From Heterobilharzia americana (lineage: Eukaryota; Platyhelminthes; Trematoda; Strigeidida; Schistosomatidae), in the NCBI GenBank assembly GCA_944470555.2, contig OX104127.1, positions 119,502,741-119,566,740 on the forward strand: 64,000 nt of DNA, read 5' to 3'. A program made the position numbers and the translations under genes. Below the pieces are notes generated by a model. The model did no database searches, was not told the DNA's origin, and saw nothing but the letters and a program-made list of their open reading frames with translations. Positions 5,265 to 62,796 of this stretch are shown here, one piece after another. Every line of letters starts with the position of its first letter. The first letter of the stretch is position 1.

Positions 5265-5760
5265 CATTATCACTGGCTGACATTACTTGGGGAAGCATTG
5301 AAAACCCAGGAGCACTGGACAGCTGTTTCATCCTAGCATGGGACTCCCCAGAAGTATGCGCTCACCACCCGGCTAGGGATCGAACTGAGGAACTTCAGGT
5401 CCCAGGACGAACGCGTTAACCATTCAGCCACCGGTTCGGGGTTCAGTGGTTCACAGTTTCCAACTTTTGTCAATTCACAGAATAGCGCAACTATCACCTA
5501 AGCTCTTCAGTTGGCATCCGCTTCCCTTTCGACTATTTGACCCAAACTGCAAACCATTGAACTCCGGCCAAGTGGCTGAATGGTTAACGCGTTCACTGTG
5601 GAACCTAAAGTTCCGAGGTTCAATCCGTAGCCGGGTCATGGGTAAGTACTGCTGAAGAGTCACATACTAAGATGAAACAACTAAACAATGCTCCCGGGTT
5701 TTTCAATGGTTCCCTAACTGATGTCAGTCCGTGGCGAATACTACCTCTAAATTAAAATCC
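5265..5760. mobile_element. Inverted pair of hammerhead SINEs (family F)
   Basis: The left copy (about 5265-5445) is on the minus strand and the right copy (about 5565-5760) on the plus strand. Each has a tRNA-like head. On the right this is 'AAGTGGCTGAATGGTTAACG' as box A and 'GAGGTTCAATCC' as box B, resembling a Leu/Ser-type tRNA. Each head is followed by a hammerhead remnant: left core CTGGGGA (A6 lost), right core CTGAAGA with a weak stem II. The tails face outward. About 120 bp of unrelated sequence separates the heads. Confidence 0.75.
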
Positions 5761-6302
5761 CCACTCATCTCCAAAATAAATTAGCGTTTTATCAAGAGAT
5801 GTCTGTTACCAATATGATTTACGGAAATCCAATGAGTTGAAACACAAATTAAGAATAGAATGGGATCTATGCAGTAGGCTATTCATCAGTTAAGGCTACT
5901 GTATGTTCTTTCAATGCTGAGAATTATTAATTTTGTACTGGGTATACATTTGTGAGCTCATATTAAGGCATAGCATATTTATTCGTCTGTGTATGATACA
6001 AAAAATGAATAAATTCTTAAATGAAACTACATAACAAAACTTCAAATTAACTGAACAATAACTTAAAGTTATGATTTTCACTTGAGTTGGTTTCCTTCAG
6101 AAATTTCAACACTATCTGACTTGGATATGTGGCTGTGATTATCATTACTATTACTGATTCTGTCGTGAATGTGGTTGCTTACAGTAAGTTCAAAAGACTA
6201 ATGAAAATCTTTCAAATTTTCCATTTATTTCACTTTGTTCTTATCAGATGGAAGTCTTTGGATGTGAAATCAAGTAGACAAGCTTTTTCTTCACTTTATT
6301 GA
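5761..6302. other. No gene recognised
   Basis: AT-rich and without tRNA boxes, long open frames or recognisable repeat. Confidence 0.5.
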
Positions 6303-8343: not shown

Positions 8344-8346
<3 letters not shown>

Positions 8347-8499
8347 CGTCATCTTTAACAATATCATATCGGAACAGTACTTCTAAAGACATTAGAGGAG
8401 TATTCAACTCTCATGGTATTAAAGTTTGTTTTAAACTTTCAAATTCATTGGAAAAAGGCTTAGTCAAAGTGGATGATACAATTTCGAAGAGAACACAAA

Positions 8500-8735
8500 A
8501 CAACTGTTAAATTTTGAGGGAGTTGTAGAGATTTGGAAATATTGCAAGTTGTTATTCATCGTCATCATCAAAATTTAATCGAACTGGTGCTCATTGGTGA
8601 CTAGCTTCGAGAAGTATTCACGAAGTTCCAATGAGAAGTCGTGACCGGTGGAGTCAAAGCCTGATGGCTATGAGGACAGATACTCAATGATGACATTGGG
8701 TGGCGGTTGCGCTATATCGTGAACAAAACAATTGT
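8500..8735. repeat. Partial foldback repeat, lacks hammerhead
   Basis: It starts with the 'tttgagggagttgtagagattt' phrase that also precedes the family F copies at 9178, 10205 and 10571. It continues into a unit (8585-8725) that is an inverted, diverged copy of 9425-9570. The landmarks 'ctcattggtgactagcttcgag' and 'ggcggttgcgctatatcgtg' occur in reverse complement there. Confidence 0.65.
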
Positions 8736-9174
8736 GTCTACAAATTCAAATCTTTGGAATTTGAGGCTAATTAAATTAGAGAAAGTTGTAGACCTTTAAA
8801 AGTCATAATGAATGAACGCAAGTTTTGTATGAAACACATCTATCAGAGAATTAAGATTAACTAGGAAGATTAAAAAAAGAGCAATCAGCATGCAGTTGAA
8901 AGTGGACTTTAGTAATGTAGATGTTTTGGGAAAGGATTTCTATTCTCATCAGGAAAGATTAAATTCCGAAACCCTACATATTTTAACAACATCATACACT
9001 AAAAACACAAGATATGAAATAGAATCGTCATCTACTTGGCAAACAGTAAACTGAAAAAACTATTTGAAGAAAAACTTTTCTAATTGGGGCTTTAAGAACA
9101 ATGACAATTACTAATTATTCATCAATAAACTAGTATTCTCATGGACGTACTGAAAACAAAGCACAGTTTACAAC
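8736..9174. other. No gene recognised
   Basis: AT-rich, with no motif or repeat recognised. Confidence 0.5.
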
Positions 9175-9650
9175 TGAATTTTGAGGGAGTTGTGGGGATT
9201 TGGAAATATTCCAAGTTGTTATTCATCGTAGATTGACATCAGTTGAAGGAACAAAGGAGACCTGGAAGCACTGGACAGCTGTTTCGTCCTAGTATGGGGT
9301 TCCTCAGCAATGCGCACCCACGACCCCGCCAGTGCTGGGACCCGCAACATTCAGGTTCCGTGGCCAACACGTTACCATTGAGCCACTGGGTCACAATCCA
9401 ATGGTCCATATTTCCAACTTCTGTTAGCTCATGATATAGCGCAACCGCCACCCAATGTCATAGTTGAGTAACTATCCTCATGACCATCAGGCTTTGCCCC
9501 CGCCGGTCACGACTTCTCATTGGAACTTCGGAAATACCTCTCGAAGCTAATCATCAATGAGCACCATACTAGGACGAAACAGTTGTCCAGTGCTCCCAGG
9601 TCTCCTTTGTTCCTCCAACTGATGTCAGTCTACGATGAATAACAACAGAC
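9175..9650. mobile_element. Foldback hammerhead SINE (family F), near full length
   Basis: The left end (9225-9460, minus orientation) has the tail, a hammerhead, and a tRNA-like head with box B GGGTCCCAGC-like and box A around 'ggccaacacgttaccattgagcc' in reverse. A central block follows (about 9425-9570). The right end (9565-9645, plus orientation) repeats the 3' half of the hammerhead and the tail. Both extremities read as reverse complements of each other, 'attcatcgtagattgacatc' against 'gatgtcagtctacgatgaat'. Confidence 0.75.
9268..9313 (-). ncRNA. Hammerhead ribozyme motif (family F)
   Basis: Minus strand parts: stem I GCATTG, core CTGAGGA, stem II ACCC/GGAC (weak, two good pairs), loop CATACTA, GAA, stem III ACAG/CTGT, cleavage C (GUC), stem I CAGTGC. 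The core is complete and stem I pairs fully with one wobble. Stem II is weakened, so activity is doubtful. Confidence 0.65.
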
Positions 9651-25445: not shown

Positions 25446-25712
25446 ATAAGTTAACGGCAATTCCTTATGTTCTACGTTTATCTTAGTGGAATATGCTCCG
25501 AGTTTGGAATGGTCACAATTGTCTCCTCAGTTCTGCAAAACCTGAAGGTATATAGATATGATTACTAAGTAATCTGGTCTCGAGGTAATAATACTGCATC
25601 TGATCTGCAGATGATGGGAAGCTTCTCGAGTAAAACCCATTGGTGCCGTAGGACTCCAGGTGTGCGTCTAACCTCCTTTCAAAGTTATCAGGGGAAGGGG
25701 GGCGCTTCAAAA
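25446..25712 (-). pseudogene. 3' end of a further CR1-like LINE copy
   Basis: The minus-strand frame 25513-25710 gives the LINE C-terminus 'NFERRLDAHLESYGTNGF' followed by 'SADQMQYYYLETRLL'. Its 3' end meets the 5' end of the large minus-strand copy almost exactly (near 25445). The two copies are therefore arranged head-to-tail on the minus strand. Confidence 0.8.
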
Positions 25713-25732
25713 CGGACAGTGTGGTTTGACAA

Positions 25733-33999: not shown

Positions 34000-34736
34000 G
34001 AAGGCCTGTCTTGCTGTGTTTCCGATGCTGGCTTCTTTCACGTCCTCATCTGTACCGCTGCCTGTAGTTGGAACGAAGCTGGTTAGGTAGGTAGGTAAAA
34101 GAGATAACTTCCTTTAGATTTCTCCCGTTGATGGTGATTGATGCTTGTTGTTACTGGTTGCTTATCTTCATCACATGTCTTCTCTACGTCCACCTGAAGG
34201 AAGTCCCGTATTCTTTCGCTGCCCTCCCTGTCCTGCCAACTTGTTAGTTTTCGCCTCTAGATCTTCGAGCTTGTGTGACATAAGACATAAATCATTGGCG
34301 AAATACAAATCTTCTGGGGTTTTTTCATCGGCCCAGCGTATGTCCATCTCACTCCTCACATTTTGTTGCATGATCCAGTCGACCACAATGAGAAAAATCA
34401 TCGGTGATAGTAGGCGACGACCTCGTCTTACTGTATTCTTCACTTCAAGGGCATCACTGAGCTTTCCATTGTGAATCACTTGGCATGTAGCCTCACTATA
34501 TAGCATGTAGCTGTTGAATGAGGGTAATAAAGGTTTGTGGCACTAAAACCGTAGTGTTGAAGCAGCTGCCTGCCAAATTACTTCTCGGTCGACGCTGTCG
34601 AAGCCCTTTTCAGAATTGATGAAGTTGAAGTCAAGAGAGTTGACTGGCATTCTATGCTCAGTTCTATGATGATATGTAGTGTAGTGTAGTGCAGCGTTGC
34701 GTTGCAATTTGATCCACAAATGATTTGTTTTACCTG

Positions 34737-34770
34737 AATCCAGTCAGTCAGTCAGTCAGTCAGCCAGCCA
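34737..34770. repeat. (CAGT)n/(CAGC)n in RTE copy B
   Basis: Tetranucleotide expansion at the point where copy A has only 'cagtcaatcagcc' (about 743-757). Confidence 0.9.
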
Positions 34771-36737
34771 GCCTGTTCCGGTCGTAATTTCGAATCGAGA
34801 GGATTTTCTGTCTAGTCTCTGCAGGATGATGCGGCTTAGTATTTTGCTGGATGTGGACAGAAGCATGATTCCGCGCCAGTTCTTGTAAAGACTGAGGTCG
34901 CCCTTCTCTGGAAGTTTGAGAAAGTGGCCCTTCTTCCAATCGACAGCTACCTCTCCTTGCTTGCTTCCTAATCTTCTGCAGTAGTGGTGTGGGCATGTCC
35001 TCTGTTGTCTCTGTGTCTGTTTTCAGTGTTTCTGGTGAGATCCCATCTGGTCCTGCTGCTTTCCTGGATATCAGCAACTTTATGGTATTCAGGACATCTG
35101 ATTTATTTGGAGGGTGTGTTCACTGATAGTTCTGTGAGTGGGCTGCTGGTGGTGTTTCTCGACGAGTTGCTGGTTATGGTAGTGGTCGATTCAAGAGCTT
35201 GTTTCAAGTGGTCAGCCCATCATTTCCTTTGATTCTCCTCCTTCTAACTAGGTTTCCTTCACTATCTCTCATTGCTTTCATGTGTGCTGCGTTGATCTCT
35301 TCCCTACCGGATAACCGGGTAACCTGGTTATTTGATATAATGTCGTCAGGTCTCTCACTATCTCTCTTACCAACAGCCTGTTCTGCTTCACTTGCAAGTA
35401 TGTTGTACGAGTGTCTTTTGTCTTTGCGCGCACACTTCTTCACTTCTTTATCTAGTGTAGTGTTTCATAGGTTGTGTTCAGTTCCTTTCTTCGTTGTTCA
35501 CCCCTGCACTACACTACACTTTACCACACTACACTACACTGGTTCATCTGCTTCACCATCTTCCTCTCCCTACTCTATCAGCTTCCATGTGGACATCCGT
35601 GAACATCCATTCCTTATCTTATCTTATCTCATTTTATCTTGCTTCTTCCTTCCTAACACGGTTATGCAGGTCCCCTTCGAAGTAGTCGCTTCCACAGAGT
35701 TCCAGTGTTCTTCCACACAGGTTTCTTTAGGGATGTTGCCCCTAATGTCTCCCATTTTGTCCTGATGACTGATGTGAGGATGGACTTTGTATTTTGGTCG
35801 TTCAGTTCAGTTTGTGTTCAACTTGGGTGTTCAACTTGAACGTGAAGGCGAAGGTGAAGGTGAACTGTGGTGTATCATCACCAGCTTCTTCGAGGTTTTT
35901 CAACTTGATTTTGAAGGCACGTTGCTTGCAGCACTGGATAGTGGTGTGAGTGGTGTGAAGCACCAACATCTGATCTTGTGTCCAGTAGACTGGCTGCGTC
36001 TCCATCTCCACCTTCTTCACATTGAGATGAAGTCGATCTGATTTCTAGTGTAGTGTAGTGTATTGTGTCCTGGTGTCTGATGAAATCAGATGCATGTCGC
36101 TGACTCGTGAATATCCTTGTGTTTGTACACACTGCCTCACCTCCGATCACCAAATCGTTGAATGTGGAGATGTCTGCAAACAGTTCATCACTTCACCGAT
36201 TGCCTCCTGACCGATGATGAGTTGTGTTCCTGTGTTGTCCGCTCCGAGTTTGGTATTCATGTCACCCCACCGATTAGAATGAATTTTGATGTTACCATTG
36301 CCGTCACCGTCACCGTCTGTGGTGTTGTCCAGTACTGACAGTAGTTGTCTGTAGAATTCCTCCTTCTTCTCTTGATCCGCATTATTTGTGAGTGCATAGT
36401 GTAGCATTGTATGACTGTAACTTTGTTTCTTTCTTTTTGAGTTGAATCTTGGTGTCATGATTGTGATTGTGCAGGAGGAGATTGTTTCTCAGTGTATGAA
36501 AGAGAGAGAGAGAGAGTGTGTGTGTGTCTTCGTTGGTGTTGGCGACATGATGATCACCAGTCGAAAAGTCAGTGCAGTGTGCTGTGCTGTGCTTGTGGTT
36601 GTGGTCTGTGTGACAATATCGAAGTAGATTATTGAGTGTCGAGTTAAGAGTTTGTAGAGTTGACTTCCATTGCATGTGGTCTCTCAGACTCGTAACCTAG
36701 CACTTCTCTGGTATTCCTTCTCATCTCTTTTGCAATC

Positions 36738-37960: not shown

Positions 37961-38709
37961 TCTAAGAAGTTCTTATACACCACTCTTAGGTTGCCGATCA
38001 CTATGTCTTCCAGTTCCGAAAATTACCTAGGGGGGAAAACTTTGTTGGTAACTTTGCAAAATTCAACTAAGGAGGAACTTCTGACTTTTCATGTTTAAAC
38101 AAACTGACAAAGTAAACACTTTGGGACTTAACATCAAAAGTAGTATCATATATATGCATTTTTCCCGCAGTATAGAAGGAGATCAGCGAAGATGGTAAAT
38201 TATCGAGACAATTAAGATATAAAAAAACTGTAGGACGAATAAAAAACGACTGGTTAGATATTTCCAACCAATAGCTTAAAACAATTTCAGTATAGACAGG
38301 AAGTTGACACTCTCCTACTTAGCCCTAACCAATAATCTTTAACTTTATGGCTTGATACCAATTCTTAGTGTTTTCGCTTTCAGCTGTTTTCTAACGTGGT
38401 TTTACAGTGTTTCACTTTACTAACCAAAGCAGATAATAGATTGATATTCGTAACAAATCCCAGCTGAGCCAGTCGATGCAGTTTCATAAAATGATTTTCA
38501 GAATTATGTACCCTGCGCCTAACCTCAACAATACCTATTCTTTTATTCTGTATTATGGAAATTTCATAGAAATACTTTTTACTTTTGATAGCCACTTTTA
38601 TAATAGTAAAATGAGATAAGAATTGAAGAAATGCAAATACTTTCTCTTTTTTTTCAGAAAATCACTGGACTACTTTTGTCTCTAAATTCACTGCCTTTGT
38701 GTTTTTCAG
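37961..38709. other. Upstream flank of the first visible CTR9 exon
   Basis: Presumed intron. It ends in a pyrimidine-rich tract and AG at 38708-38709. An earlier AG at 38656-38657 is excluded as the acceptor for this frame by an in-frame TAA at 38683. No start-codon exon was recognised here. Confidence 0.55.
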
Positions 38710-39035
38710 GTTTCAGTGAATTCTGACTACAGTGGGTTGCCAGCGGAGAATACTATTGAGATACCACTACGAGGAGGAGATGAAGTTATAGAACTAGATA
38801 CGGATCAGTTACCTGATGGTGAAGAAGTTCTTAACATACTCAATCAAGAGAAGGCCCCCTTGCAAATTTGGATTAATGTTGCTATCGCTTATTACAAAAA
38901 GAAATTGTATGATGATTTTGAAAAAGTCCTTGAAGAAGCTTATCGTAATGCTGCTGACCTACAACCATATCATGATAGTGACTTAGTTCGATTGTTGGAT
39001 ATGCTTGCGAACTATTACGGTCGGAAGGCTTATAA
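38710..39035 (+). CDS. CTR9: CTR9 exon a (N-terminus)
   Basis: Acceptor 'gtttttcag' before 38710; donor GTAAGTG from 39036. Encodes '[15 protein letters not shown]', '[20 protein letters not shown]' and '[18 protein letters not shown]'. These match the conserved Ctr9 N-terminus, which begins a few residues after the start Met in other animals. There is no Met in the first 25 residues, so the start codon must be in an upstream exon. The last two bases (AA) complete a Lys codon with exon b. Confidence 0.95.
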
Positions 39036-42000
39036 GTAAGTGATTGTGTTGTGAAAATTGATTAATCGGTTAGATATTTAGTCAAATCTGTAAAAATATC
39101 CAAATTTTGTAATGTCTTCGCACTAGGTATTTTGTATGTAGCATTTGTGAGTAATAACATTCCGTTCTCTGATTGGGTTGAACTTTGTTGAGAAGTTGTT
39201 CCAGTTGAGTTTGCGACGTTTACTTATTAAGAACATGGCTGGCTTTATCTTGCGTTCTTGCTTACCGGAATTGATACACGGTCTTATCGCTGAAAACAAT
39301 TAAATATGTATGCCAGATAATACAGTTAGGAAAGGTGATCACTCATCAGTTACTAGGAGATTTGAAAGATCTTACTTTATGTTACGTAGGTAGCATGCTT
39401 CGTGAGAAGTTATACAAACGAATGAATAAAACTTTATTTATTTTCCCCATTGGTTTTTGCTGGAAGATGTTTTCATGACTAAACTTGAGACAATAAACTT
39501 CGGTCAAGTATAATGACAATAGGCTTTATATTGCCTTTGTATGTGCTCTACACCCGCTGTGTCTATCAAGAACATAAATACAGAATTGTTAGCTAAATTT
39601 AATGGTGTTCGTCGAATGATCCTGTTCATATATAAAGTAGAAAATTAAAGTCGAATTTTCTTCATGATATATGAAGCTCAATCGATTGGTATACAGGAGC
39701 ATACACGAAGAGAACAGTATGCGTTGCTGATAAGAATGGATATAAGTAGCATATGTTGAGAGGGTGGCAGAAATCATAGGAAATTACCAGCAATAGGTAA
39801 GGATTCCGTCAAGAGAAACGCAAGAGACAAGGCAGGCGTATGAAGAGCAGATCAAGAAAGAAGCAGAAGAGGAAATGAAACACATTTTGCTAATGACGGT
39901 TTTAGTGTATCATATTTAACGACTACTGTCCCACTTGTTGACAATAAACATTCCTTCCTGCATACCTGTCTTCTTTCTTCTGTCAAACTCATTTCCATTC
40001 TGTTTTTGACTTCTTCATCTTCACTTTGCCAGGGTGCATTTATACGCTTAATTACTGCCATACTGTATGTCACTTCTTGTGTATTATGAGGTCTCTTTCT
40101 AGACGTACAAGAAATTTCCTGCCGCCATGTTTAGTCAAGAGATAGTTGGAAACTGTCAATCATTCCTTACAGTGGCTGTTTCAACCAATGGGTTATGGCG
40201 GTCAGACCCCAACCTAACCTGCTGAGGTCTAGGTAGCCAGGTAGAATTACTGTCTCTTACAAAATAGATGTTTTCTTACCTAGTGCGTGTAACTGTCTAC
40301 GGTCGCTGAATTACATTAGTTGGTTTTATATACTCACAGTATCTTAAAGTTTATTCTCTTAGATTTTTTTAGTCATCCCAAATGGATTTCTTTTCTTTCT
40401 CTTAAACTGAAATGATGTAGTAGCTCAACAAACCGAAACTGATTACTCATTGTTTTCTGTACCAAAATAGTGCTTCATCTGGTTTGATGAGTAATTTGGG
40501 ACCAAAGTATTTAGAGACTTTTGTAGATAGTTGATGAGAACCTGTTGGAATGTCAACATCAATGTTTTATTCACGATGTGATTAAGTGTTTACTAACTAG
40601 AGAATAATCGATGACCAGTGGAATTACTCTTCATAGTATTGTATCTGTTGTCCTGACAACGTTTCTCTTAGTCTATCACTATTTGGTCTTTCTTGTCAGC
40701 TGTCTTGGTATTCATCGTGGATTGACATCAGTTGGAGGAACATTAGAAACCTAGGAGCACTGGACAACTGTCCCACCCTAGAATGGGACCCCTCAGCAGT
40801 GCACACCCATGACCTTGCCCTGCCAGGGATCGAACCCACGACCTACAGATTCTGTGGCCAGCACGTTTCCATTGAGCTACTGCGTTGGAATCCAACGGTT
40901 CATGTTGGACCGTGGATCATGAGTGCGCACTGCTGAGGAGTCTCATGCTAGGGCGAAACAGCTATCCAGTTCTCCCAGGTTTCTAATGTTCCTCCAACTA
41001 ATGTCAATCCATGTTGAGTACCAACCTGAAATCAATCAATAAACCCCCTTAAACTCCCAAATTAAACTGTTTACTTCCAGTCAATCTTCGATTAGTCCAT
41101 CACCCAGATCGCATGCCTTCCTTTTTTCAAATTTCTTTAATCGTGAATAAGTGTTTAGTTTGTACTCTGTTTAGAATAAGTACAACAACTTATCTCTTCA
41201 TTTAAACAACGTAGTGAGAAGACGGAAATTAACGAAAACATGTAATGTGTAAGCGCTATACATTTTAAACATTCTGATCACACATGAACTTGTCGAGAAA
41301 GTTACATAAAACTAAGAAAGGTTAATGAAGCCAACCGAATTATAATTAAGAGAGATAATTAGGACAAAACGAAAACAAGAAAGGGAAAAAGAGGTCAGAC
41401 CACTTCCAACAATATGAAGAGTTGAACCCAATGCTGCCAGGGTAAGTACAGATTATTTTTGAATACATAAAACAGGTTTGAAGTTATGGATAGCAAGTGC
41501 TTCGATAAACGTAAGTATTCATCCTTGATTATATGTATACAATACACTAAAAGCTGTCTTTATATCGATCGCATGGTAAGTTTCTAGTGCGTATTTTGCG
41601 ATCGATTAGGAAGGACGTTTATCACCTGGACTTATCAAACTGGAGCCATTTAGGCACATGTTCAACCGTTCTTAACTGGATATCATGATTACTCCTCCAT
41701 ATATATATGTGTCCACATAAACGTGTAAATTGATAGGCACAATGGGATATGTTATACTTGTTGGGATGCTGTTTAGATTTGTATTGAGGTATGGGGGTTG
41801 TCTTCACTGAGATGACCATTCTAACATAACAACTGATTCACTGCCTATTTATGAGATTATATTCACACTTATCACTACATATTTAAAAACTCCTGGAGAT
41901 ACTGTTGGGTTGAGTATAATTGGTCGAACCGTAACCAATTTCTAATCATTTAATTATTCACGTTACTGTGGGAACTAAGGCGTAACTATTTGAAATTACC

Positions 42001-42328
42001 TTGTTCTCTTCCTCAACTATTAATTCATCTTTGGCGTTTTGTGCTCTTATTAACGTGCTACTGTATAGATCTTTAGTAGTATATTTGTATGATCATAATT
42101 TATTGATACATATTGATGACGAATTATCCTCTGTTGTTAAGACGAAAATTCTTTTCAATCAAGACGTTCTTTGGGGAATTGATCAGTTCGAAAGCAACAA
42201 AAAGCATCAATCACCATCAACGGGAGAAATCTAAAGGAAGTTGCCTCTTTTACCTGCCTACCTAGGCAGCGGCACAGATGAGGACGTGAAAGAAGCCAGC
42301 ATCGGAAACACAGCAAGACAGGCCTTCC

Positions 42329-42359
<31 letters not shown>

Positions 42360-45300
42360 TTAACCTGAAATCAGTGTGGAAATCTACTGCACTGCACTGC
42401 ACTCAGCCAGAATAAAGCGTGAACAACATGCGAATTTTCAACTCTAATGTCAGTCAGTACTTCTCTGTGATGGTTGAGAGACTTGGTGGTGCGTTACGAA
42501 AAGCATTTCGAACAAACTACAGATATTCATCGACAGCTGCGCCCTATGCTCAATAGTGAAGATCAGATGGATGGTCAGAAAGAATAAGCAACAAGGAACT
42601 CTGGCTGGCTGGCAACGAACCAACCAAGAACCCATCACTCAACAAATATGCAGAGGGAGAAAGTGGAGGTGGATCGGGCATACATTGAGAAGACCGTTTA
42701 AGAACATCACGCGTCAGGCCAGGCTAGGCCGTCGAGTAGAAGCCAAATGGGAAAATACGAATTAGGCGTCCGAGGCGATGATGACATGGAGGAGATGGTG
42801 TGAGGAAGAAATGAAAGCTTGTGGGCAGTCGTGGAGGCAGGTTGGAAAGACTGTAGAGAACAGAGTGAAATTGTGACGTGCTACTGAAGCCCTATGTTCC
42901 ACTACGAAGCCAAAGGACTAAGAATAATGAAATGATGATATCAACTACAGGACGGTTGGAGATTCAGTGTTACTGAAAATCGGTTTCACTCTGGGTAAAA
43001 TGGTTCATTAATAGTATATATTTGCAATCGAGGCTACAACGTTTCTTGAGTTTCATGACAAGTATACCACTACTTAACATACCATTAGATCAAAATCTAA
43101 TGATTTATATTCCTTCACCTTGAGTTGGTTGCCGATAAATAGTGTACCAAGTAATCAGTTATTCTTAAACTATTCAGTTGAATCAAACTCCATCGATCAT
43201 TTGAACTTGTTTTTGACAAGGATTTCTAAAAGTTCTTAATATCACGTGAATGCATTATAGTTGAAGATACCTATCAGTTTTTTTTAATGTTTATATAAGG
43301 TATTCAGAAGAATTGAATTAGAGAATTGTTAACTTATGAGTTGGAACCTAGTAACTGGATGTTAGCGTTTACCCTGTGATTTCTTAAAGAAAAGAGGGTA
43401 CTTATTATTAAGTTAAAACAACTGTTCCGTGTTTTACTAGATCCCTTACTTTTTTAATCTATGATAAAACCTATTCTATTATTATGATTTTATTTATGTG
43501 TCGATTTTTTTTATTTTGCAGAGAAAAAAGTAAGGATAAAAAGAATCAATTGATTGCTCATGCCACTAGACTTTTCACTTCTGCTGATAGAATTGATATG
43601 TATGATCAAAAACATTTATTGGGACGAGCTTTCTTCTTTATATATGAAGGTGAAAATTGGAGTCAAGCTGATAGTCAATTAAATTTTGTATTGAATCAAG
43701 GTGCTCCAAGTGTACCAGCTTATTTAGGCAAAGCATGTATTGCATTCAATAAAAAAGAATACAGAAATGCATTAGGATTTTATCGTAAAGCATTACGTTT
43801 ACAACCAAATTGTCCAGCAACTGTTCGTCTTGGCATGGGTCATTGTTTCTTTAAGCTTGGTAATATGGAGAAAGCACGTTTAGCATTTCAAAGAGCTTTA
43901 GATTTAGATTCAGAATGTATAGGTGCTTTGGTTGGACTTGCTGTGTTGGATTTAAATGAGAAAACTCAAGTAATTTATTTAATTTTTATTTTTATTACAT
44001 TTTTTTCAATAAATATATATTAGCTACCTTCTAAAAAGTTAGATTAATGTTTTTAAAATGGATTCGATACATGTATTATCAGATTAGCTAGTTGTAACCT
44101 GCCAGCTGGTCATTTTTTTTTAAAGGTATGTGTACACTGAAGTTATTGAAGTTAAGGGAATGTATACACTTCAATTGTTAAGCCATTTACATGTAAAGCA
44201 ACTGAACTTTCCTTGATTGTTAGGGTAGAGAGAGTTTTCATCCTGTGAATTAAATAGATGCCCTATGTGTTGATTGCTCTGAAAATTTGTGTAAATTAAA
44301 ATGTTCACTATGGAATGGATCAATTTTTCTGGATTCTTTTTTGTTGTTGAGAGTTGACGATTCACTTAGATTGTTTAGACACAATAACGTGTTTGTAGAT
44401 AAGAATATATGAACTCTGATCTTTTTGAAGTTTCTTTTTAGAGTTCTGACTTGCTTTTTGATACTTTTAACTTCCTGTTACTATACTAACAGGATTACTC
44501 AACCTTTGTTGGTAGATAGACTCTTATGCAGATGCTTTGGTACAGCCTGTTTACACATTATGTTAATGTCTGCTTCGTGGCTAACAGTGGAGTGCAGGAT
44601 GCAGACAGTATCAAGGTATCTGCATGGGAGCCCACCTGTCAAAAGACGTAGAACAATTCAATCGTGTACAGTAAGGAGAGATTACAAGCATTATAAGTTT
44701 TCATGCTCCGGTGGCCTAGTGGATAACGCTTTTGTATTTAAGCCGATGAATATGAGATTCGAGTCCCATTGGAGACAACACCACTCATTGGGATGGAGGT
44801 ATATCCAGCTGACGAGTGTCGAGCAGGACTAAACGCATGTTCTAGATTCCATTGGTAGCCACCAAGCAGACAATAACATTCTTTCAAATTACTTTCTCAG
44901 TGACTTACTGATTTACTGTCGTACTATTTTGCAGGACCAGGCTTTCAGATGAATACATCAAAAGAAATTACGAGAAAGCTGCTGACTAAATATGGAAGGT
45001 CTGAATGAAAGTATGCAGTTGTTGCATTATTGAGTTTGATTTAGCTCATGACTAATGACTTTCTGAATACATTGATAAAAGAGTTAAGTAAGCAACCTCG
45101 TAGCTCAGTGAGTAGAGAATCGGGCCGGAACCCCCGGTGGTCGCTGGTTCGAATCCGATCGCGGTTCAAATTTACATTTCACCTTCAATCATTACCCAGT
45201 ATCAATAATACAAGTTTGCCTAACTACGGCTATCTCAAATAGTCAAAATGATAATCATCATGATGCTCCCCTTCTCTAATTCAGTTACATTTGGATTCGA

Positions 45301-48300
45301 ATGAGAAGTCCTGACTGGCCATCCAGTGTGAGTGCAATCAGTCGGTAGTGATGTGTCACGAATTCATATGGTAGTCTGGTAAAATCCATCTTGGTGATTG
45401 GAGTGAGATAAGAATCTGTTCAGCAGTCGGACCTCGTAGCTGAGTTGTTAGAGCATCAGGTCGGAAACCCCGGTGGTCGCTGGTTTGAATCTGACCATGG
45501 TTCGAATTTCCATTTCACCTTCATTCATCACCCAGTATCAATAATACAAGTCTACCAAACCAGTGGCTATCTCACTCAGATAATGAAACTGATAAGCAAA
45601 AGTTGTAACTATCTTGTATACGCCATTCACTATAAATAGTGAAAAGTTTCATACAGGTAGAGATTCTAAAGAAGGTGTTATCAAAAAGTTGCTTATTAAT
45701 CTGATTTCTCGATTTATTTCATTTTTTCCCATAGGTTTTAAGCAGCCATATGATACTTGTGTCTCCAAGACACAAATACAGTTCACAGTATTATGCTGTT
45801 TGCATAAGGGGGAGGGGGGGGACAGGGAACAATGCAGTGATCATCAACTGAAGAATAAAAGAGAATCATTGAAGTATATCTTATTTTGGTGTACTGGCTA
45901 GAGCTAGTTATGTTCAGCGTTGAAGATGATAGTACAGTAGCAGTAATTAACAACAAAAGCTGAAAGAATTTCATTAGACTTGACATTATTTACTACAAAT
46001 AAATTCTTTATCCTGCTTCAGTACCTTTGTAGTGAAGACGTGGTTAATTGGTTTAGGCAGTTGACTTTCAACCAAGTAGGTCACAGGTTTTAACATCACT
46101 CTACCTATTAAGGTTTAAGCAACTATAGAGTTGTATCGTTAGCTCGTCATATATAATAACTGGTAGCTTAATGCCTACTACACAAATGTACATATAATTA
46201 CTGAGTAATGCATTTCAATTCAATTCATTAATGTTATAATTTTATGCATTTTTATTCTATTAATTTAGGAATCAATTAAACAAGGAGTTCAGAAGTTATC
46301 TCGAGCATATAATCTTGATCCAACTAATCCTATGGTATTGAATCATTTAGCAGATCATTTTTTTTATAAAAAAGAATATGCAAAAGTTCATCGATTAGCA
46401 TTACATGCTTTTTATAATACAGAAACTGAATCTATGCGTGCTGAAAGTTGTTATCAAATGGCTCGTGCATTTCATATGCAAGAAAATTATGATAATGCAT
46501 TCCAATATTATTATTTAGCTACACAACTTGCTTCATCAACATTTATTCTACCTTTCTATGGTCTTGGTCAAATGTATTTACATCGAAATGATCTGGAACA
46601 TGTAAGTACAGTTTGACTTTTTTTTCCTTTTTGTGTGTATGTATCCCATCTGTTTGTGATATATATAGTAAGTAGATCCTGACATTGATATAAGAGTAAA
46701 ACTTGGGCATTGTGGTCGATTGTAATTCCATTTTAGTCTGTTTATTAGAAATATCACACAGTGAGACAGTAGCATTTACTGGATAACGTTTCGGACATAA
46801 TTTATTGTCCATATTCATATCAGGTAACTCCACAACTTCGAGACAGCCTTTATATATTCCTAATTTTCTCTCCTTCTCTGTGATGACAAGGGTAGTAGAA
46901 TTTTCCACATATAATATGAGACAGGTGCAGAGTCATTTCGATTGCATGTGTTTGGTGTTGATTCGATAAACAAAGATTCAGTTATCAATCTCTACATCCA
47001 CCTAACTAAGTTAGTTTTCAAAACTGTCGCCTTATCTCACCCTACTGTGTGATTGTGTCGTCGCATGCAGAGCCATAGCCGAGTTTTTCTCTAGATTTCT
47101 TATCTTATTAGGATCTACTAATCCTGATTTAACTAAGTTTTTGTGCTCTGTTATTCTAATCGACCCTGGTCGACTGCTTTGACCTATGTACTTGACCTCG
47201 CAATCATTGCAAGGGATCTGGTAGACCAGATTATTTTGCTTAATTGCATCGATAGGATATTTTAACCTACAAAGCTTGTTTCTAAGTGAGTTTGTTGGTT
47301 TAAATGCCAGCCACTTTAATCCCAACAGGCTTATTGAGAATTCTTGGTAATGCTTCTGAGGTGCCTTCCTTGTATGGTAGGTAACACAGCAGAGGCTTTG
47401 AATTCTCTCTCAACCCTGTCACCATTATTACCATTAGTAGTGGGATTATTATTAATAACACCTGTATTACTACTACTACTACTGCTACCACTCATAATAT
47501 TTTTCTTTCGATTTCTTATGAATTTTTTTATAAATTTTGATGGGTAATTACTGAGACGTAGGGTATTCTTGATGTGTCAAATTTCTTGTCTCAGATTTTC
47601 CAATCTACTAGTAAGCTTTTCGCTCTATCACTTCAACTGAAATGGGATGCGATGGTTCTAAGTCTAAGTAGCAATATGAATGGGTAGGTTTCCCATAGAC
47701 ACTAGTCTCTAGATTTCCTTCTTGTGTTCGTTTAATCTTGCAACCCAACATTGCTAGCTCACCTTCACTTTCTAAGTCACAGGTAAATTGGATTGCATTC
47801 ACTACTGAGTTTATATGTGCCAATAAGCTGTTGATGTGTTCCGATTTCAGTGCTGTAAACGTATCATCTACATATCGGAACCATATCTTTGGAGTGGGGC
47901 TAAATGTTTGAAGGGCCATCTGTTCCCAACTTTCCATAAATATGTCTGCAACGATAGGGGATATTGGTGGTCCCGTGGCAACACCTTAAGTTTGTTTATA
48001 TATTTTATTTTGAAACTTAAAAACTGTAGATGTTAGGCACAATCGAACTCTTAGCATGATTTCCTCGATCGGCACCTTAGTTCGATGTGTAAGTTCTTTG
48101 TCATCTTTAAGCCCATATCTAACTGCCTCTAGAGCCGTATCAGTCGTTATATTTGTGTAAAGGCTAGTTATGTCAAAACTAACCATTTTTTCACTGTCGT
48201 CTAATCTATGCTTTAAGTCATAAGAGTCGGTAAGTCGACTTTGAGTGATTTCTTATTGGACCTAACACTATTGCTAAATATTTAGACAACTCGTAAGTCG

Positions 48301-51300
48301 GAGTGTTTCTAAAATCTACTATGGGCCTGATGGGATAACCTGGCTTTTGAATCTTAATAGTACCATACATTCGACTGGGATCATTAGTTTTCGGCATTAA
48401 ATTAAACCACTTTGACTCACCTAGAAATGGCTTCATCTGGAGTATCAGATCCCCTGTCGATTTCTCGACCTTATTCGCAATAGTATCCACTCACTTCTTA
48501 ATTTCCTCATATGGTCCTGTTTCTATACGCTCGTTCACTTTGTAGACGTATTCAGATTTGTTCATTACAACTGTTGAGTTGCATTTATCCGATTTGGCAA
48601 TTACCATATTGTTATCATTTCAAAGGTTCCTGAGAGCTTCTCTCTTTAACTGTGCTCTTAGCTCATCCTCATATACATGGTCTGTTACTTTCTTTTTGTT
48701 TCTTGATTATCTCCTTATCTACTAGATGGTCAAATAAATAATTAATACTAGATGATGATTGGAGGTGAAATAAAAATTTGGATCGCCGCCGGATTCTAAC
48801 CAGTGACTATAGGGTTTCCGACCTGATGCTCTAACAACTCAGCTACGAGGTCCGACTGCTGAACAGATTCTTATCTCACGCCAATCACCAAGATGGATTT
48901 TACCAGACTACCATATGAATTCGTGACACATCACTACCGACTGATTGTACTCACACTGGATGGCTAGTCAGGACTTCTCATTCGAATCCAAATGTAACTG
49001 AATTAGAGAAGGGGAGCATCATGATGATTATCATTTTGACTATTTGAGATAGCTGTAGTTAGGCAAACTTGTATTATTGATACTGGGTAATGATTGAAGG
49101 TGAAGTGAAAATGTGGGGCGCAGCAGGAATTCACTTTCAATTACCACATAGGATCAATACAAGTCTTCCAGACCACGGCTGAGATAGTCAAACTGAAAAT
49201 AAGTAATTACTGACTGTTAGTTCCTAGAGTGATGAGGAGTACTGGCAAAACCATTAGTTACTGTGATAGTATCTTTAGCTTAACTGATTTATTCTAAGCA
49301 CAGTAGTATTCATTTAACTTCTCTTGCTTTCCTATAATATATATGAGTTTCTTTCTATATCTACTAATGAATAATCCGTATTAAAAACTCAAGTATTCAA
49401 AGATGATTACACAATAAGTGATGATGCAACTGAAAGTACTTTTTTAAATAGTGGAAAATAGTGAATTCAATATATTTGAGTCCTTTACGCGTATATTCAT
49501 GCAGTAGACAATGGACCATACCTCTTATGTGAAGACTAATAATACTACCTATCTGCCCAAACCTCGATAGCTGGGGCAGAGTTCGAATCCATGACTCACT
49601 GGGCGATGGTCAACTCCCTAAACCATTGAGCCACAAATCCACCTACGCGTACAACAGTCATACTCAGTTGGATTACGTGCAAGGTGTCATTGGTTATTAT
49701 TAGCCGATGAACTACTGAAAAACAAGAGAAAAAAAATAGTCATTGATTTTTGTTTATTTTGTATTTTTCTATAATAAATACTTATTTTGATTTTTGACGT
49801 CATATAAATAATGTTTAAAAATGTTTTGTCTTTTGGGCTTTCTTTCTTACCAATTAGGCTGCTATGTCATTTGAACGTGTACTAAAAGATAATCCTAATA
49901 ATTATGAAACATTAAAAATACTTGGCAGTTTATATGCTCAATCGAATAAACCTGATAAAAGAGCACAATCGAAACAGTTATTTAAGCAAGCAAGTTTAAT
50001 AATCCACTTTTTAATTGTTATTTTAATATGCATTAATTTTGTCTTATTTATATAATAGGAATACCTTGACCAGGTTTTGGTCCACAGGCACACTTGTGGA
50101 TTCCCGACCCTAGTTGTATTTCTCTGTCCGAAGGTGACATTCAACTCCGTTAACCGAGATGTCATATTACAGTAGTGTCTCTCACAAAAAAAGAGTGCTA
50201 AATAAGTACATCATTTTGTTGAAAACTGTGTTAGAAAACCTATAGGCGTATTAGAGCCTATGATGAGTTATCAGATGTTTACATCTAATCGTGTACGTTA
50301 CAATAATGAAGTCTTTCTCTCTTGTCACTTTTGTCAGACGTGCTTGTTAGTGTCCATTACTTGTCGTAATTCACCTTGCACAGGAAGTTCTTAAGTGTCG
50401 ACGTAGAGTATGCAAATGACATGATCATGTTAGATGGAGATGCTGACCAGAAATAGAGTCTTCTGAACGCATTGAGTGGCAATTTTAGAGTTCTTGGACT
50501 GCGTTTTTCGCTACCCGAATGCTTCAGGAATGGTCTTTACTGGTTCATTGCCTCACAGTAGAAAATGAAACGGTTAGACGCATTGGCCTCTCCACTTATT
50601 CAGGAAGTAAGATCAGCCCGGGTAGTTCACTGACCGACACTATAGTTTGTTGTGTTGTATTATATGGTTGTAAAACACGACCGTTAAAGTTAAAGGATAT
50701 CAGAAGGCTCCTTGTTTTAGATCAACGTTGGTTTCATAGCATAGGTCACTTGTCATGGTGCTGCCATGTCAGTAACATGTATGTTGCACACCGATTTTTA
50801 TTTTGGAAGAGGAAGGTCAGTTGGTAAGGTTGTGAAATTTTATAAACTCAGGTGATTGGGATATGTGTTATGCATGTCTAGTCATAGTCAACGTCATCGC
50901 ACAATATTAACTGAAGTATGCTTAGGTTAGAGAAAGGTTAGAAGTGGACAGACTAAAACATGACGTCACTGTATCAAGTCTTTGACTGTTTACTTTAGGT
51001 GTCTAGCGAGATGTAGACCTTCAGCTTGGAGTACACGTGTAGACCGAAATCAGTGATTGAAGCTGTGAGTGATATGGTTCAGAATCACTATCAGTGGCTC
51101 AGATGTATCCACCACACATAATCTTCGTCTTACTCGTCATGCTACCATCGCTTCTTGTTTTCTTGCCATGACTTTCTCCCTTATTTGTGTATCTTTCATC
51201 TTGATACCTTTTGCATTGATATGTTGATATCACTTATAACAACTTGGACCGTTACGCAGCAATGGTAGACCTCACGTTGGTACTGATTATCTGAGCCCTG

Positions 51301-54300
51301 ATGAAAGTTTTTCTATCAAGTTTGCAATGTGATCCCCCTCCCCGCAACCATACTCATGGTGTACTGCAGTGCACTGAATTTTGATGTTCTGTTTTCGATC
51401 TGAATGGCTGAGTGTTAGGATCTGTGTGCTTTCAGCAATGAGTGACGCAGGGGATCCGCCTTGGTAACGAGGGCCAAAAAGCACAAAGTTTAAATCATAC
51501 AGGACCCCTTCTACCAGCGGAAACGTAGACACATATATGTTTATCGGGTTTATTGTCTAAAATACTTTCTCTTTTGTAAGTTTCACATCCCACTTGAATT
51601 TGCCAACCGACGATTTAATACATTTTTAATCAAATAATAAGCTCCAGTATTCTATTCGGAAGTTTACTTTGTTTTTATGTTATTTGGTTACTGATCTATT
51701 TTTTTCTTTACTAGGAGTCGAACTTACCAGTCATCGTTTCACAAATATCAGCAATTTAATTTGAGATTTGTGGAGGTTTACTGATTTTTTTCAAGTTAGT
51801 ATTCATCATGGACTGATATCAGTTGGAGGGATATTGGAGACCTAGGAGCATTGTACAGCTGTTCCGTCCTAGTATGAGACTCCTCAGCGGTGCGCACCGA
51901 TGGTCTACGGTCTAATATGGACCGTTGAATTTCATTCAACACAGTAGCTCAATGGTAACGTGCCAACCACGGAACGTGAAGGTCGTGGGTTTGATCCCTG
52001 TTGTGGCAAGGTCATGGGTGCGCACTGCTGAGGAGTCGCATTGTAGGACGGAACAGTTGTCCAGTGCTCCCAGGTCTCTAATGTTCTTCCAACTGATATC
52101 ACTCTATGATGAATACCAGGAAATTATTCACTGATCTACCCTCAATTTATACTCTCATTTTTAACAAATCAGTTTCTTTATTTTATACATTTTCTTTTCT
52201 CAACAGGTAACTGAAAGTCAACCTGAAGATGTAGAAGCATGGATTGAATATGCTCAACTGTTAGAAAACAATGTAAATGAAGCTTTAGAGGCATATTCAA
52301 AAGCATTGACAATTTTACAAAATATCCAATTAGATATTGCTCCAGAAATATTGAACAACATAGCTACTCTTCATTTTATGAAAGGTGAATATGACAAATC
52401 GTCTGTAAGTGAAAATAAAATCTGTTTTTCTCTTCTTTCATATAGCCGAGTTTATTGTCTTTCAAAGTGTCCTTAAATAATATTCAATTGAAGTAGGTTG
52501 TTATTTCATGTATATTTCATTTCATCTTCAAATGTTTATCACCTTTTAATAACTATTTCTAATATAGACAATGTAAAACTTGACGGTGAATTATTCCTAG
52601 TAGTTATACACTGAGGTGGTATTCCGTATTCCCTTTGATGATTTTATGTTATCGATGATGTGACTTTCTGAGAAGATAGCCGTATTTTGGCGCAGACTGG
52701 TATTATTGGCACCTATTTTTCGGCGGGAGTAACTATATTTCGCTCAAGGTAGTCATGTGTCTCGCCATAGTTACGTGGTTATAGCGTCATTGTGAAGAAG
52801 CTCTACATGGTACTGTTATGTGGTGTAGTTGTTTGAGCTGCAGGCCAAGAAAGCTGGAGATGACATGTGTATCGGTGAATACTGATCGGAACTAGTTAAG
52901 CAACAATGGTGAGCCTCTTTGTAACCCCACCGTATTCTTACCAATACACCGTCATAGTTGACTTAGCAATAATAGCAGTCAACGAGATCTGTATACACTT
53001 GTTATTGGCATGAATCTCCAAAGCTTGAACAGGCTAGCTAACCGTAAGTATTTCGCTTAGCGGGCTGGAAGCAGTGCAGCAATATAAGGTAAGAGAGCTC
53101 AGCTTCCTAATTTCGTTAGTCACTGTTGTTGAAGCAGTCTCAACAGGCGTGGTATAGTTTAGCTAGCGAAGGTGAGACGGTATTCGGTCCGGAATGCCGA
53201 GTATCGTTCACTGTAGCCAAAGTCTATTTCTTAGGTAGTTTCAGAGGGGCGTCCATTTCTGAATTTTCGTTGTAATGTGGTTGTCCGGTTCCGAGGAGGT
53301 GTGGTGCATCGCTTTCTGCAAGATTGTGAATAATCAGTGAGACATATCTCACGTACGTCTCCCCACAAGGAGTTGAGTACGGCCAACAAGCCGATTACTT
53401 GATGAACCCGGATACGTTGAAGTCTGATAGTTGGGATTGAGGGATTCACTGATCAATTTCAAGGGACGGTTAACACAGTGCTCTGGCAGGAGTGTTCATT
53501 TTCATGTGGTTGAGTTACTAAAGATGCTTCCTACTCACTGAGGTGATCTATTCCCCGGGTCAAGAAATGGTAATGTTTAAACTTACGATGTCTGACCTAG
53601 AACTGGGATGTTAGCCAAAAACTGGAGTAAAACTTTAAAAATATCCTCGCCAGCTAGGTTATCTTGACTGAACTATTCATCTTGTTCCTTTGGTCAATTT
53701 TCAATATGATGGTATGATGTCGTTCTTAATGCAATCCCGTTCATTATAGGTCATGAAGGTATTTTAAACCAACGTTTTGCACCATGTTGAGAAATTACTG
53801 ATTAGTAGCTTATGGAGCCATCATCTATCTAAACATGCTATATAAGTGTTAGATTTGGTTAAAGCTAAGAGTGGGGAGACTGAGGCGTGGAAAAGCATCA
53901 CTAATTGGTAACAGTTCTTTCGAAAACTACAGGAACTTTGGTTTTTCTAGTTGATCCATCCCAAAGTCTTGCAACTCTCGTGGAATTTGTAAATTAACTT
54001 TGAAAGTTTACATTTCATTCTCAGCGTCTCGTTGTCCAAGCCCATAAATGCTTGCATTTTGTCCCCTATATTCTTATCACTGGGAGTGCCAGAAAGCTTT
54101 TTAGATTTCCTGTTTTGGGGTTGCGTTGAACTGGTAATGGTTGAATTAAGGGATCAGAACGTGTATACCACATCGGTTTCATATCATGTTATCTGTTGTT
54201 CAATGTATAGCCATGTCATGCTTGTCGAACTTTAAATCATATCATCAATAAAGTTATCGTTTGTTCATTTAAATTGCGCAAGGAAGCTTCATTTTAGTTG

Positions 54301-57300: not shown

Positions 57301-60300
57301 TCTGTTGGCATTCACTTTTTATAATGTTCCAAACTTAAATAACTTGAACTATTACATTTTCCTACAGTATTTTTCATCATTCCATTTGTCTTCCTCTCTG
57401 GTAAGGTGTTGATTATACTGATCAATCAGTTAGGCTAATTTTTTTGAGTTTTCTATCCTTTTTCATGATTCCACTTGATTGTTATTGATAACTGTTATAA
57501 TCCACGGTATATATAACGATACAATGCTCCCATGTGATACGATTAACGATAGAACAATGACTTCTCAGCACGACATTCAACTGACACTAGAAGATAATAA
57601 TCTACCTGAAAACTCAGTCGTTTATATTTCCTTACATAGCCTTGCCTAGGGAAAACAAAATAGCATATTAAAAGTGTTAAATGGACCAATTAGCGTTTAG
57701 TATAGTAAATCTCGGTAAAAATAAGTATTTATACTGGGTGATGATTGAAGGTGAAGTGAAAATTTGAACTATTGCCGGATTCGAACCAGCGACCACTTGG
57801 TTTCTGACCTGGTGCTCTATTAACTTGAACTACGATTGGTCGGACTGTTGATCGGATTTTTATTTCACTTCAATCACTAAGGTGTGTTTTACCCGACTAT
57901 TATGTGAATTGGTGTTGCGTTGCTGTCCCTTAATCGTATTCACATGGACTGCCCAACCGGCACTTTCATCCCGATCCAAATGTAACTGAGTCAGAGATGG
58001 AGAGCATCATATTGATGATTATCATTTTGACTGTTTGAGATAGCCGTGGTTTGGTAGACTTGTATTATTGATACTAGGTAATGATTGAGGGTGAAATGGA
58101 AATTTAGTTCGTTGCCGGACTCGGACCAGTGACCACTGGGTTTCCACCCGATGATCTACCAACTGAGTTATGAGGTCGGACTGCAGACCAGGTTTTTTTT
58201 TCACTTCAGTCACTAAAGTGTGTTTTACCCGACTACCATATGAATTCGTGACATGTTCCTACTTCTTGATCGTATTCATCACCCAGTATAAATACAAGTC
58301 TGCCAAACTACGGCTATCTCAGATAGTCAAGTGGTAAAATAAGTAACATCTCATGACGCACAAAGGGAGCATACTGATGACATATACGTCCTATAAGTTA
58401 GTTTTTCTTCGGGATTAAGCATCCCTGACGATAACATCCTTTAAAGGTAACAAGTTATAAAATACACTTCTTATCGTGATTCCACTTTCTTTTTTCATAA
58501 TAGGAATTTTTCACACGTGCATATGATCGTATTCTTGAAGAGCAGAGACATGAAGAAAATGAATCTGCTGATACCACTGGTGGTGGTACTATCTCATCCA
58601 ATGATGATTATTATCATGGGCTAGGTGTTACTGTTCGTTATAATCAAGCAAGACTTCATGAAGCTCAAGGTAGATCTGATTTAGCTGAAGAAATTTATAA
58701 GAGTATTCTACTTCGACATCCAAGCTACATTGAATGTAAGTTTATTATATGATGAATATAGAAAAAAAATACATATGAGTAAATTTTCTATGAAATTAAG
58801 TTGTGTTTGTTGACGCTTCACCTTCCTTCATCTTCATAGATTATAATTCTTACCTAATTCATTGTTTTCATATACTCCTTTTCCTGCCTTATAGAACTGA
58901 GTGAAAAATAACTTTTAAGTGATCAAAATTGATTGATTTTCTTGTCACTTTCATTTAAGGATAATAATGATAATACTAATCAATTTATTCAATCTAGAGG
59001 TTTGTTAAGATTTATTAATTTCAAGTTGCTGTTCATCATGAACTGACATCAGTTGTAACCGGTGGGGCAAACCTGGTTGGACGTGTGAGGACAAGTACTA
59101 AACGATGAAATTGAATGAGATTGATCGTGCTATACCGTGAACTGATAAAAGTTGGAGGTATTGACCACTAGATTCTAATCCAATGGCTCAGTAGTAACGT
59201 GCTGGCCATGGAACCTGAAGGTCGCGGGTTCGATCCCTAGCGGGGTGGGGTCATGGGTGCGCGCTGCTGAGGAGTCCCATGCTAGGAGGGAACAGCTGTC
59301 CAGTTCTCCCAGGTTTTCAGTGTTCTCATTCAAATGATGTCAGCCCACGGTGAATACCAACTTGGAATATTGTTGTTACAGTATGATATTCTGTGTCATA
59401 TTTTAAAAAACTCCTTGTATAGTATTTGCAAATGAACAGCTATGGCATCTAAATAGTGTTAATAATAATGGTAATAGTTTAATAGACAATAATATATGAC
59501 GGTCAGTTGTTGTTTTTAGGTTATCATCTGGTTTGTTCATAGGTTGTTGCTTGGGATAGATACACAAACAGATAGACGAAACTAACTTAGAACCTGGCAC
59601 ACAAATACATCGGTCCAAGTTGTCATACTTCACAGTAGTATACAAAAAACAGGTGGATAGAAAAAGAGTGATATTAAAGTAAACAAAGCTGTGTGAAAGA
59701 ATAAACTATTTGCAGATAAAGGTTAGTCCAAATATTTAAGCTTTAGATGTCAAGGAGTGAATACATCTGAGCCACTGAGACCGATTTTCAACCGTATCAT
59801 CAAGAGTCCTCAACCACTAATTCATTTCGCCATGGGGACCCCAACCAGACATAGTTTGACTTAATCGACTGTTGCCGGGTCTTGGTCTGGCCCCCCTGAA
59901 CCCTCTTCTAACCTAATCCAACGTCCACCTACCATGACATGTCGAGGTAGACGATGGCTCAGCATACGCAACATATGAAATAATGGGGAATATTTGTAGC
60001 TCAGGTGGATGGTCTTGGTTGTATTATCTTCTCTGAGCTGGGTTGTTTAATCGTGAAGCTTTCATCGTCTTTCTAGATGACATCATCAGCTCTAACTTTA
60101 GCATGAAGTGAGCTGTCAATATCTCTCCGTAAGTGATTTAGTAGCTTTCCTAACGAACTGGTTTATAATTGGTTGTTTCCTTTGATTGTTATGTCATTGA
60201 CTGTACAGACTTTACGATTGGCTGTTGATAGATTGGGTCTATGTCTATACATCTATTGATTTCTGACTGACTGACCTGAATGCCAAGCTTTTAGGAATTC

Positions 60301-62416: not shown

Positions 62417-62690
62417 GTAAAATAGAAAAAAAAAGTGTTCAATTTGATCATTTCTGTTTGACAATATTAGACAATATTAATTACAGTACAGTTTAAATGA
62501 TTTACCACTTATCAGTATTTGATTTAATCTTTCTTACTTAATCATCATGTTTAGGGATATCGATCTCTTTTATCAAATTCTGTTTATATATTCTTGTTCT
62601 CTAGAATTTCTGAAGGTGTTTTTATGTCTGAGTAATAAGCCAGTATAAATATGTACTGGAAGTGAATGACTGAAGGATATTTTATTATGT
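62417..62690. other. CTR9 intron g, 5' part
   Basis: AT-rich; no motif. Confidence 0.45.
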
Positions 62691-62796
62691 TCATGTTGGA
62701 ATTCATCATGGACTGATATCGGTTGAAGGAACATTGAACAACTGTTTCATCCTATTATGGCCCTCCTTAGCAGTGCGCACTCATTGTACTGGGTGT
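62691..62796 (-). mobile_element. Family F SINE end fragment
   Basis: Minus-strand hammerhead remnant at about 62742-62785 (core CTAAGGA, stem II GGGC/GGAT) and tail 'ggaattcatcatggactgat'. Abuts the gag fragment. Confidence 0.6.

Follow-up and report, generated by a model that had tools for sequence, protein, structure and literature searches.

Metazoan non-LTR retrozymes are described, in the sections of PMC7229834 available, as short tandem units (150-450 bp) with a type I hammerhead ribozyme, many genomic copies and duplications of more than 4 bp, in animals that include platyhelminths. The same sections name Penelope-like elements (PLEs) as candidate movers of retrozymes and leave both the mobilising enzyme and the circular-RNA template of animal retrozymes as a hypothesis (Cervera and de la Pena 2020). 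In schistosomes, Smalpha of Schistosoma mansoni is a SINE-like retroelement with a hammerhead, whose W36.2 member has 335 bp according to the portion of PMC8490949 at hand. A purified PLE of Anolis (PAc) differs from R2 and L1 in cutting and extending both strands, and its synthesis begins at two neighbouring internal sites, which delimit an optional "tail" of 30-40 bp in genomic copies (PMC11167929).

The window analysed here is the whole stretch of 64,000 nt from Heterobilharzia americana (C1:119502741-119566740), and the searches covered the 664.9-Mb assembly. The initial annotation reported in it a foldback SINE with opposed hammerheads. The family monomer was derived from 30 genomic matches to the unit at 40705 (the best 40 of 9836 candidates being scored), mapped on the repeated unit. 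It has 402 nt and reads head (1-110), hammerhead (about 112-160, cut after 155), tail, spacer to 402 and head again. The tail has two end sites, S1 at about 221 and S2 at about 255; the S2 end sequence is ...CTCAAAATTTAA and the S1 end, 35 nt upstream, is ...CAACTTGA. The linker between them, including the last A, is composed of 14 A, 11 C, 11 T and no G. Motifs spotted by eye in the head (TGGCTCAATGG, GGTTCGATCC) resemble A and B boxes. More than one monomer per copy is found in loci L013, L017, L020, L032 and L036, one arm of a pair reaching 518-617 nt in the first three, and spacer and monomer searches (best 40 of 1626 and of 2930 scored, respectively) gave arrays at 402-bp steps. An array on C4 holds 5 (-) and 4 (+) monomers at such steps. 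The small unplaced contig C50 carries at 3370-13613 a palindrome of about 10 kb, 13 (-) followed by 12 (+) monomers head to head, whose arms may be a rolling-circle product. With its type I hammerhead, 402-bp tandem unit and duplications of more than 4 bp (8-16 bp in the 18 pairs taken for the nick-motif count below), the family has the anatomy of a metazoan retrozyme, a name that suits it better than SINE. A single copy of this retrozyme-like family gives an RF00163 match of 41.6 bits (7189-7236); pairs give weaker matches.

The foldback is real. The arms of the unit (40705-40812 and 40917-41024) are 85% complementary across 108 nt and, as first described, one tRNA-like head lies between them, contributed mostly by the left arm in reverse complement. 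Homology extends to about 41057-41069 when the linker is counted. The unit is organized as follows:

40705..40906 (-): S1-side arm with reverse-complement tail, decayed hammerhead (CTGAGGG, GGGA in the core check) and tRNA-like head, corresponding to monomer 14-213
40893..40916 (no strand): junction zone of the two arms, with an identical non-consensus sequence at 51907-51927
40914..41066 (+): S2-side arm with hammerhead-like motif at 40927-40972 (23.2 bits, below cut-off), tail and linker to about 41057-41069

The hammerhead claimed for each end of this unit holds by homology only; the core of the left one is lost. The Rfam search matched the right hammerhead alone (cut-off 34 bits) and gave no match to the left one up to E=1. 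The right arm keeps the hammerhead core, with a stem III that appears weakened by eye. Self-cleavage of transcripts from both strands, an idea raised in the initial annotation, is doubtful for this unit because the left core is dead. No clear target-site duplication adjoins its ends (score 0); the copies of a 12-bp repeat (one mismatch) are found farther out, 25 bp beyond the left end and 39 bp beyond the right one. Exons of a CTR9-like gene span 38686-46616 (+) of the window: 43412-44020 matches human-type CTR9 (E=7e-67) and frames at 38686 and 46269 resemble, by eye, the neighbouring CTR9 exons. The foldback seems to be housed in an intron of this gene, an example of how head-to-head pairs place inverted repeats in introns.

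The recurrence of this architecture at three further places of the window is borne out (51752-52129, 9160-9646 and 58994-59371), and two other head-to-head units (5267-5773 and 8495-8735) had been overlooked. Their parts are:

51752..51905 (-): second unit (copy of the 40705 unit), arm with linker and dead hammerhead (GGAA in the core check)
51914..52129 (+): second unit, linker-less arm with head and hammerhead-like motif at 52022-52067 (31.7 bits; GGAA)
9160..9564 (-): third unit, arm with linker, comprising spacer, head, intact-core hammerhead and tail
9559..9646 (+): third unit, short arm beginning within the hammerhead
58994..59076 (-): fourth unit, short arm with linker and without hammerhead
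59044..59371 (+): fourth unit, spacer, head, hammerhead (GGAA) and tail ending at S1
5267..5773 (no strand): old head-to-head unit found by profile match, in which (-) 5267-5546 abuts (+) 5546-5773
8495..8735 (no strand): young unit within a 13-bp duplication (8495-8507 and 8723-8735, one mismatch), with (-) tail at 8507-8562 and (+) spacer at 8568-8722

In the 51752 unit GGAA replaces GAAA in both arms, and the right arm of the 9160 unit lacks the 5' half of the ribozyme. Among the window pairs the core is kept only in the left arm of the 9160 unit and in the right arm at 40914. Over all loci, 39 of the 68 readable copies have an intact core; for young copies the figure is 35 of 47. Of the 29 units in which two or more copies can be read, 10 have an intact core in every readable copy. 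Two-strand self-cleavage is conceivable for transcripts of young pairs.

The window holds several other repeats. Two LINE arms (20985-24344 and 25791-29151) are inverted, 99.5% identical over 3361 bp, with heads inward and differing 3' ends; they are perhaps a large foldback or an inverted duplication. A second repeat with tRNA-like heads and a direct period of about 336 bp is found at 45071-45599, 48704-49130, 54352-54666 and 57723-58336; at L020:2958-3089, L032:5470-5791 and window 58027-58330 two copies of it lie inverted, abutting or close to each other. The two Rfam tRNA matches of the window also fall outside the retrozyme-like family, in another repeat. The second-repeat copy at 48704-49130 lies directly upstream of a Penelope-like reverse transcriptase frame (47032-48700, -) on the same strand, as a chimera or an insertion. 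Two HH9-like hammerheads (54725-54798 and 55049-55122, -; scoring 33.6 and 37.3 bits against a cut-off of 52) sit in a direct repeat whose units are 94% alike, another candidate retrozyme. Two 2-kb retroelement copies (706-2723 and 34707-36734) are 95% identical on the same strand. The PLE-like frames of the window are fragments with no intact 5' end: 47608-47985 matches Pfam RVT_1 at 21.8 bits (cut-off 29.6), and GIY-YIG-like motifs noticed by eye at 47032-47409 and 60336-60869 have no Pfam match. For the PLE-like frames at 60336-61346, the match at 62677-62784 was considered as their hammerhead and rejected, as gag-like frames and stops lie in between (translation, by eye).

The family is abundant. 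Its tail 21-mer has 6109 and 6111 genome matches on the two strands with up to one mismatch (12,220), the reversed sequence none, and this abundance is what could favour pairs made of two independent insertions, one into or beside the other. Pairing is nevertheless strongly oriented. Around the first 100 exact occurrences of the tail, which all sit at one end of C1, a search out to 800 bp gives 19 head-to-head neighbours, 5 tandem ones at a spacing of 399-408 bp and no tail-to-tail one, with about 0.3 expected per orientation. When copies within 90 bp are joined into groups, the window and 200 kb of random genome together yield 30 groups, of which 12 are head-to-head and none is tail-to-tail: the random sample gives 14 single-orientation groups (one of them tandem) and 6 head-to-head, for an expectation of about 0.08 head-to-head, and the window gives 4 and 6. 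Flanks of the loci matching the 40705 unit hold 9 single-orientation groups, 3 head-to-head and 1 tail-to-tail. A looser earlier profile, joining copies up to 250 bp apart, counted 45 head-to-head pairs against 10 tandem and 5 tail-to-tail ones over all loci, including one weak tail-to-tail pair inside the random sample (L039:2951-3239); the matches listed in the monomer search include 13 head-to-head loci and 0 tail-to-tail. Pairs make up some 30-60% of insertion groups in these small samples. The initial annotation was ready to give up its reading if most genomic copies were single and pairing no commoner than chance; pairing is far above chance.

Duplications surround full units, which is where the initial annotation proposed to look for them, and a separate duplication for each arm is not supported. 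A whole-unit duplication score of at least 10 is reached by 15 of 43 units versus 5 of 645 shuffled flank pairs, and one of at least 12 by 10 of 43 versus 0 of 645. The 43 include L001 and L002, which are duplicates of two window units, and L011, whose score depends on a TA repeat; leaving out all three gives 14/40 and 9/40. A looser first test gave 15/45 versus 0.9% of shuffled pairs. In L013, L017 and L020 the duplication encloses pairs with their 518-617-nt arm. In 23 young units the distance from arm to arm is only -9 to +8 bp, too little to accommodate a duplication for each. Two independent insertions hardly come into question in view of the orientation bias, the abutting arms, the one duplication round both and the private variants common to both arms (see below). 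An assembly or read artefact is scarcely more credible. Foldback reads can mimic palindromes, which applies above all to the small contig C50; however, the arms of old pairs are about 15% from the young consensus, duplications are present and all 30 loci matching the 40705 unit sit on eight large contigs.

The edges of the duplications also show a nick motif. In 18 units with a duplication score of at least 8 (L011 left out, S1 side oriented on the right), AAAC precedes the duplication in 5 (p=1e-7) and GTTT follows it in 4 (p=6e-6), which amounts to T|GTTT on both strands. An identical motif at both nicks is unusual for the second-strand cuts of L1-like elements, and suggests that a single endonuclease makes both cuts. 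At the junction between the arms, an overlap of at least 2 bp is found in 14 of the 23 young units, all of them taken from matches to the 40705 unit only.

The two arms of a pair differ at their ends. Exactly one arm carries the 35-nt linker up to S2 in 39 of the 43 evaluable pairs (by eye with scores), and the opposite arm stops at S1 or, occasionally, elsewhere. This has p=1.6e-8 even assuming 50% mixing. The linker score of 22 used corresponds to 99% of controls, and L039 and the second unit of L007, which reach the locus end, are left out of the tally. By score alone one-linker pairs are 40 of 43, the second arm of L028 scoring 20. The exceptions are L012 (at most a partial linker), L042 and the second unit of L024 (none) and L028 (seemingly two). 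BLAST ends alone give one of each end in 30 of 43 pairs, none in 13 and two in 0, the 13 being explained by old linkers that are missed; BLAST places an S2 end in 29 distinct units, and in 21 of these the other end is at monomer 215-228. The rule is weakened somewhat by the fact that re-copied pairs could inherit their ends and are not independent. Among 26 single copies read by eye, 19 are without linker, 6 have it and 1 is unclear.

The sequences of the arms bear on the number of templates. Private non-consensus, non-CpG variants common to both arms amount, in comparison with shuffled arms, to 0.75 versus 0.19 per unit in 24 young pairs (0/5000 permutations) and to 1.89 versus 1.08 in nine old pairs (p=0.006); pairs were classed as young or old by a limit of 11.5% divergence together with the AA variant, chosen by the authors. 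Part of the sharing could come from hidden subfamilies. The 5+4 array of C4 has, by eye, private changes common to both arms at the junction. At monomer position 200, one arm has T and the other A in young units L004, L011, L013 and L015; of 23 units, 4 are T in both arms, 4 mixed and 15 neither, the arms being still associated (p=0.008). The mixed site implies that some pairs have two template sequences. Most pairs look like the product of one source, and some need two. A single cDNA that folds and primes its own second copy (snap-back) would be expected to yield inverted arms with identical variants. It is very improbable all the same, because the second arm could not hold a linker missing from the first, the unpaired loop is in the S1 arm of some units and the S2 arm of others, and alleles at site 200 are mixed.

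The junctions show whether pairs are inherited as such. Among 41 distinct units two couples have a common junction and the other junctions differ, several old ones being ill defined. The units 40705-41069 and 51752-52121 have in common a non-consensus junction over the whole head, have an identical end order and are about 81% identical. Their homology stops at the element ends, so both derive from a single foldback, and a completed pair can now and then be re-copied as a unit. A 28-mer test of the junction, allowing up to 3 mismatches, matched just the 40705 unit and overlooked 51752, and therefore carries no weight on uniqueness. L009 and L019 have junction coordinates and sequence in common, with a 5-bp overlap, different flanks and 94.6% identity over 333 nt; their likeness could result from descent or from recurrence through the 5-bp microhomology. 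The joint of L015 resembles that of L016, with the ends swapped. Note that a junction-coordinate sum of about 108 among matches to the 40705 unit was dismissed as a bias from the query's loop length, units outside that query varying widely. A palindromic family multiplying as such would account for both couples. It is improbable given the other differing junctions and the fact that the best 30 matches to the 40705 unit, themselves selected by similarity, include one sibling, 51752. Nor does the family look like a foldback or MITE DNA transposon, in view of its unequal ends and its junctions, which mostly differ with the exception of the two couples. Since the junctions of the other units differ, pairs mostly form anew, from a tandem or circular template. 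The initial annotation's palindromic derivative arising by reverse transcription is therefore right in its origin and for the 40705 unit, which was copied as a palindrome, but does not stand as a general account.

The best explanation for the architecture, orientation bias, duplications, one-linker rule, two-nick motif, common variants, tandem arms and one re-copied pair described above is both-strand target-primed copying from the adjacent S1 and S2 sites of a tandem or circular retrozyme RNA, probably by a Penelope-like machine; a probability of about 0.6 is assigned to it. The template would be a non-autonomous retrozyme RNA of 402-nt units, in the form of a circle or a concatemer. The reverse transcriptase would nick both strands of an AT-rich target and both 3' ends would serve as primers. 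S2 would be the start of one cDNA and, in most cases, S1 that of the other; a single RNA, or RNAs from one source, would usually template both. Each cDNA would run back through tail, hammerhead and head for a variable distance, sometimes over several laps, and the cDNA ends would then join, often through a few bases of microhomology, to give a head-to-head pair within one target-site duplication. The completed pair would occasionally be copied as a unit. Circularity of the RNA, as opposed to a concatemer, and the Penelope-like nature of the machine are what we infer. As no insertion was noticed to end at the hammerhead cut, the data give no indication that cleavage or circles are required. The start sites of PAc were not seen to differ between strands, and the one-linker rule is thus not predicted by that work (PMC11167929).

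The main rival is classical LINE twin priming, with an APE-type endonuclease, on a multimeric RNA. The first cDNA would start at the RNA 3' end (S1) and the second at the internal A-rich S2 of an upstream monomer, palindromes arising only from a tandem template. Duplications, microhomology and truncated arms agree with it, templates longer than the monomer exist, most readable single copies lack the linker, heterogeneous monomers would account for the mixed alleles, and twin priming with two RNAs has been described for snRNA and L1 in the part of PMC4476161 available. It is nonetheless rated unlikely, considering the high share of pairs, the identical motif at both nicks and the single LINE inspected (20985-29151), which by eye has no S1/S2 tail. 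A bolder form of the preferred both-strand copying can be entertained tentatively, the odds being against it. A Penelope-type dimer would load one RNA circle and its protomers would nick and prime separately at S1 and S2, palindromic insertion being the normal outcome and retrozymes being parasites of Penelope elements. If true, there would be a dozen rolling-circle laps per arm at times and the pairs would be an in vivo record of both-strand target-primed copying.

Compared with known systems, the repeat agrees with the described metazoan retrozymes in its ribozyme, its unit length, its many copies and its duplications. Head-to-head insertions and a two-site start rule, found here, are absent from the sections of PMC7229834 available. 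Smalpha is alike in its hammerhead, its SINE-like retroelement character and its schistosome host, a likeness by description in the portion of PMC8490949 at hand, and its W36.2 member is shorter than the 402-bp monomer. Titles and abstract beginnings in the open-access literature gave no account of a foldback form of a hammerhead SINE or retrozyme. In L1 twin priming (Ostertag and Kazazian, via the available part of PMC4476161) the second strand likewise primes within the RNA and an inversion with microhomology is left in one duplication. The pairs studied here have this same hallmark, an inversion inside one duplication with microhomology at the join; in contrast to L1, both of their arms carry the identical tail and, mostly, the ribozyme. 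The inverted piece of L1 is not known to overlap the rest, both coming from separate stretches of one linear RNA. The arms here overlap in monomer coordinates, although a concatemer could still give non-overlapping stretches. PAc shares with the present family an AT-rich target, a tandem template and a hammerhead upstream; it differs as an autonomous element studied in vitro, with no head-to-head genomic product in the main text (PMC11167929). End sites 35 nt apart and head-to-head arms would, by analogy, be those of a Penelope-like element, as read from insertion ends rather than from an assay. Footprints that preserve both nicks, both starts and both arms make the questions of the retrozyme mover and template testable, and suggest that the two-strand target-primed synthesis observed in vitro with one Penelope element yields a product that is common in a genome.
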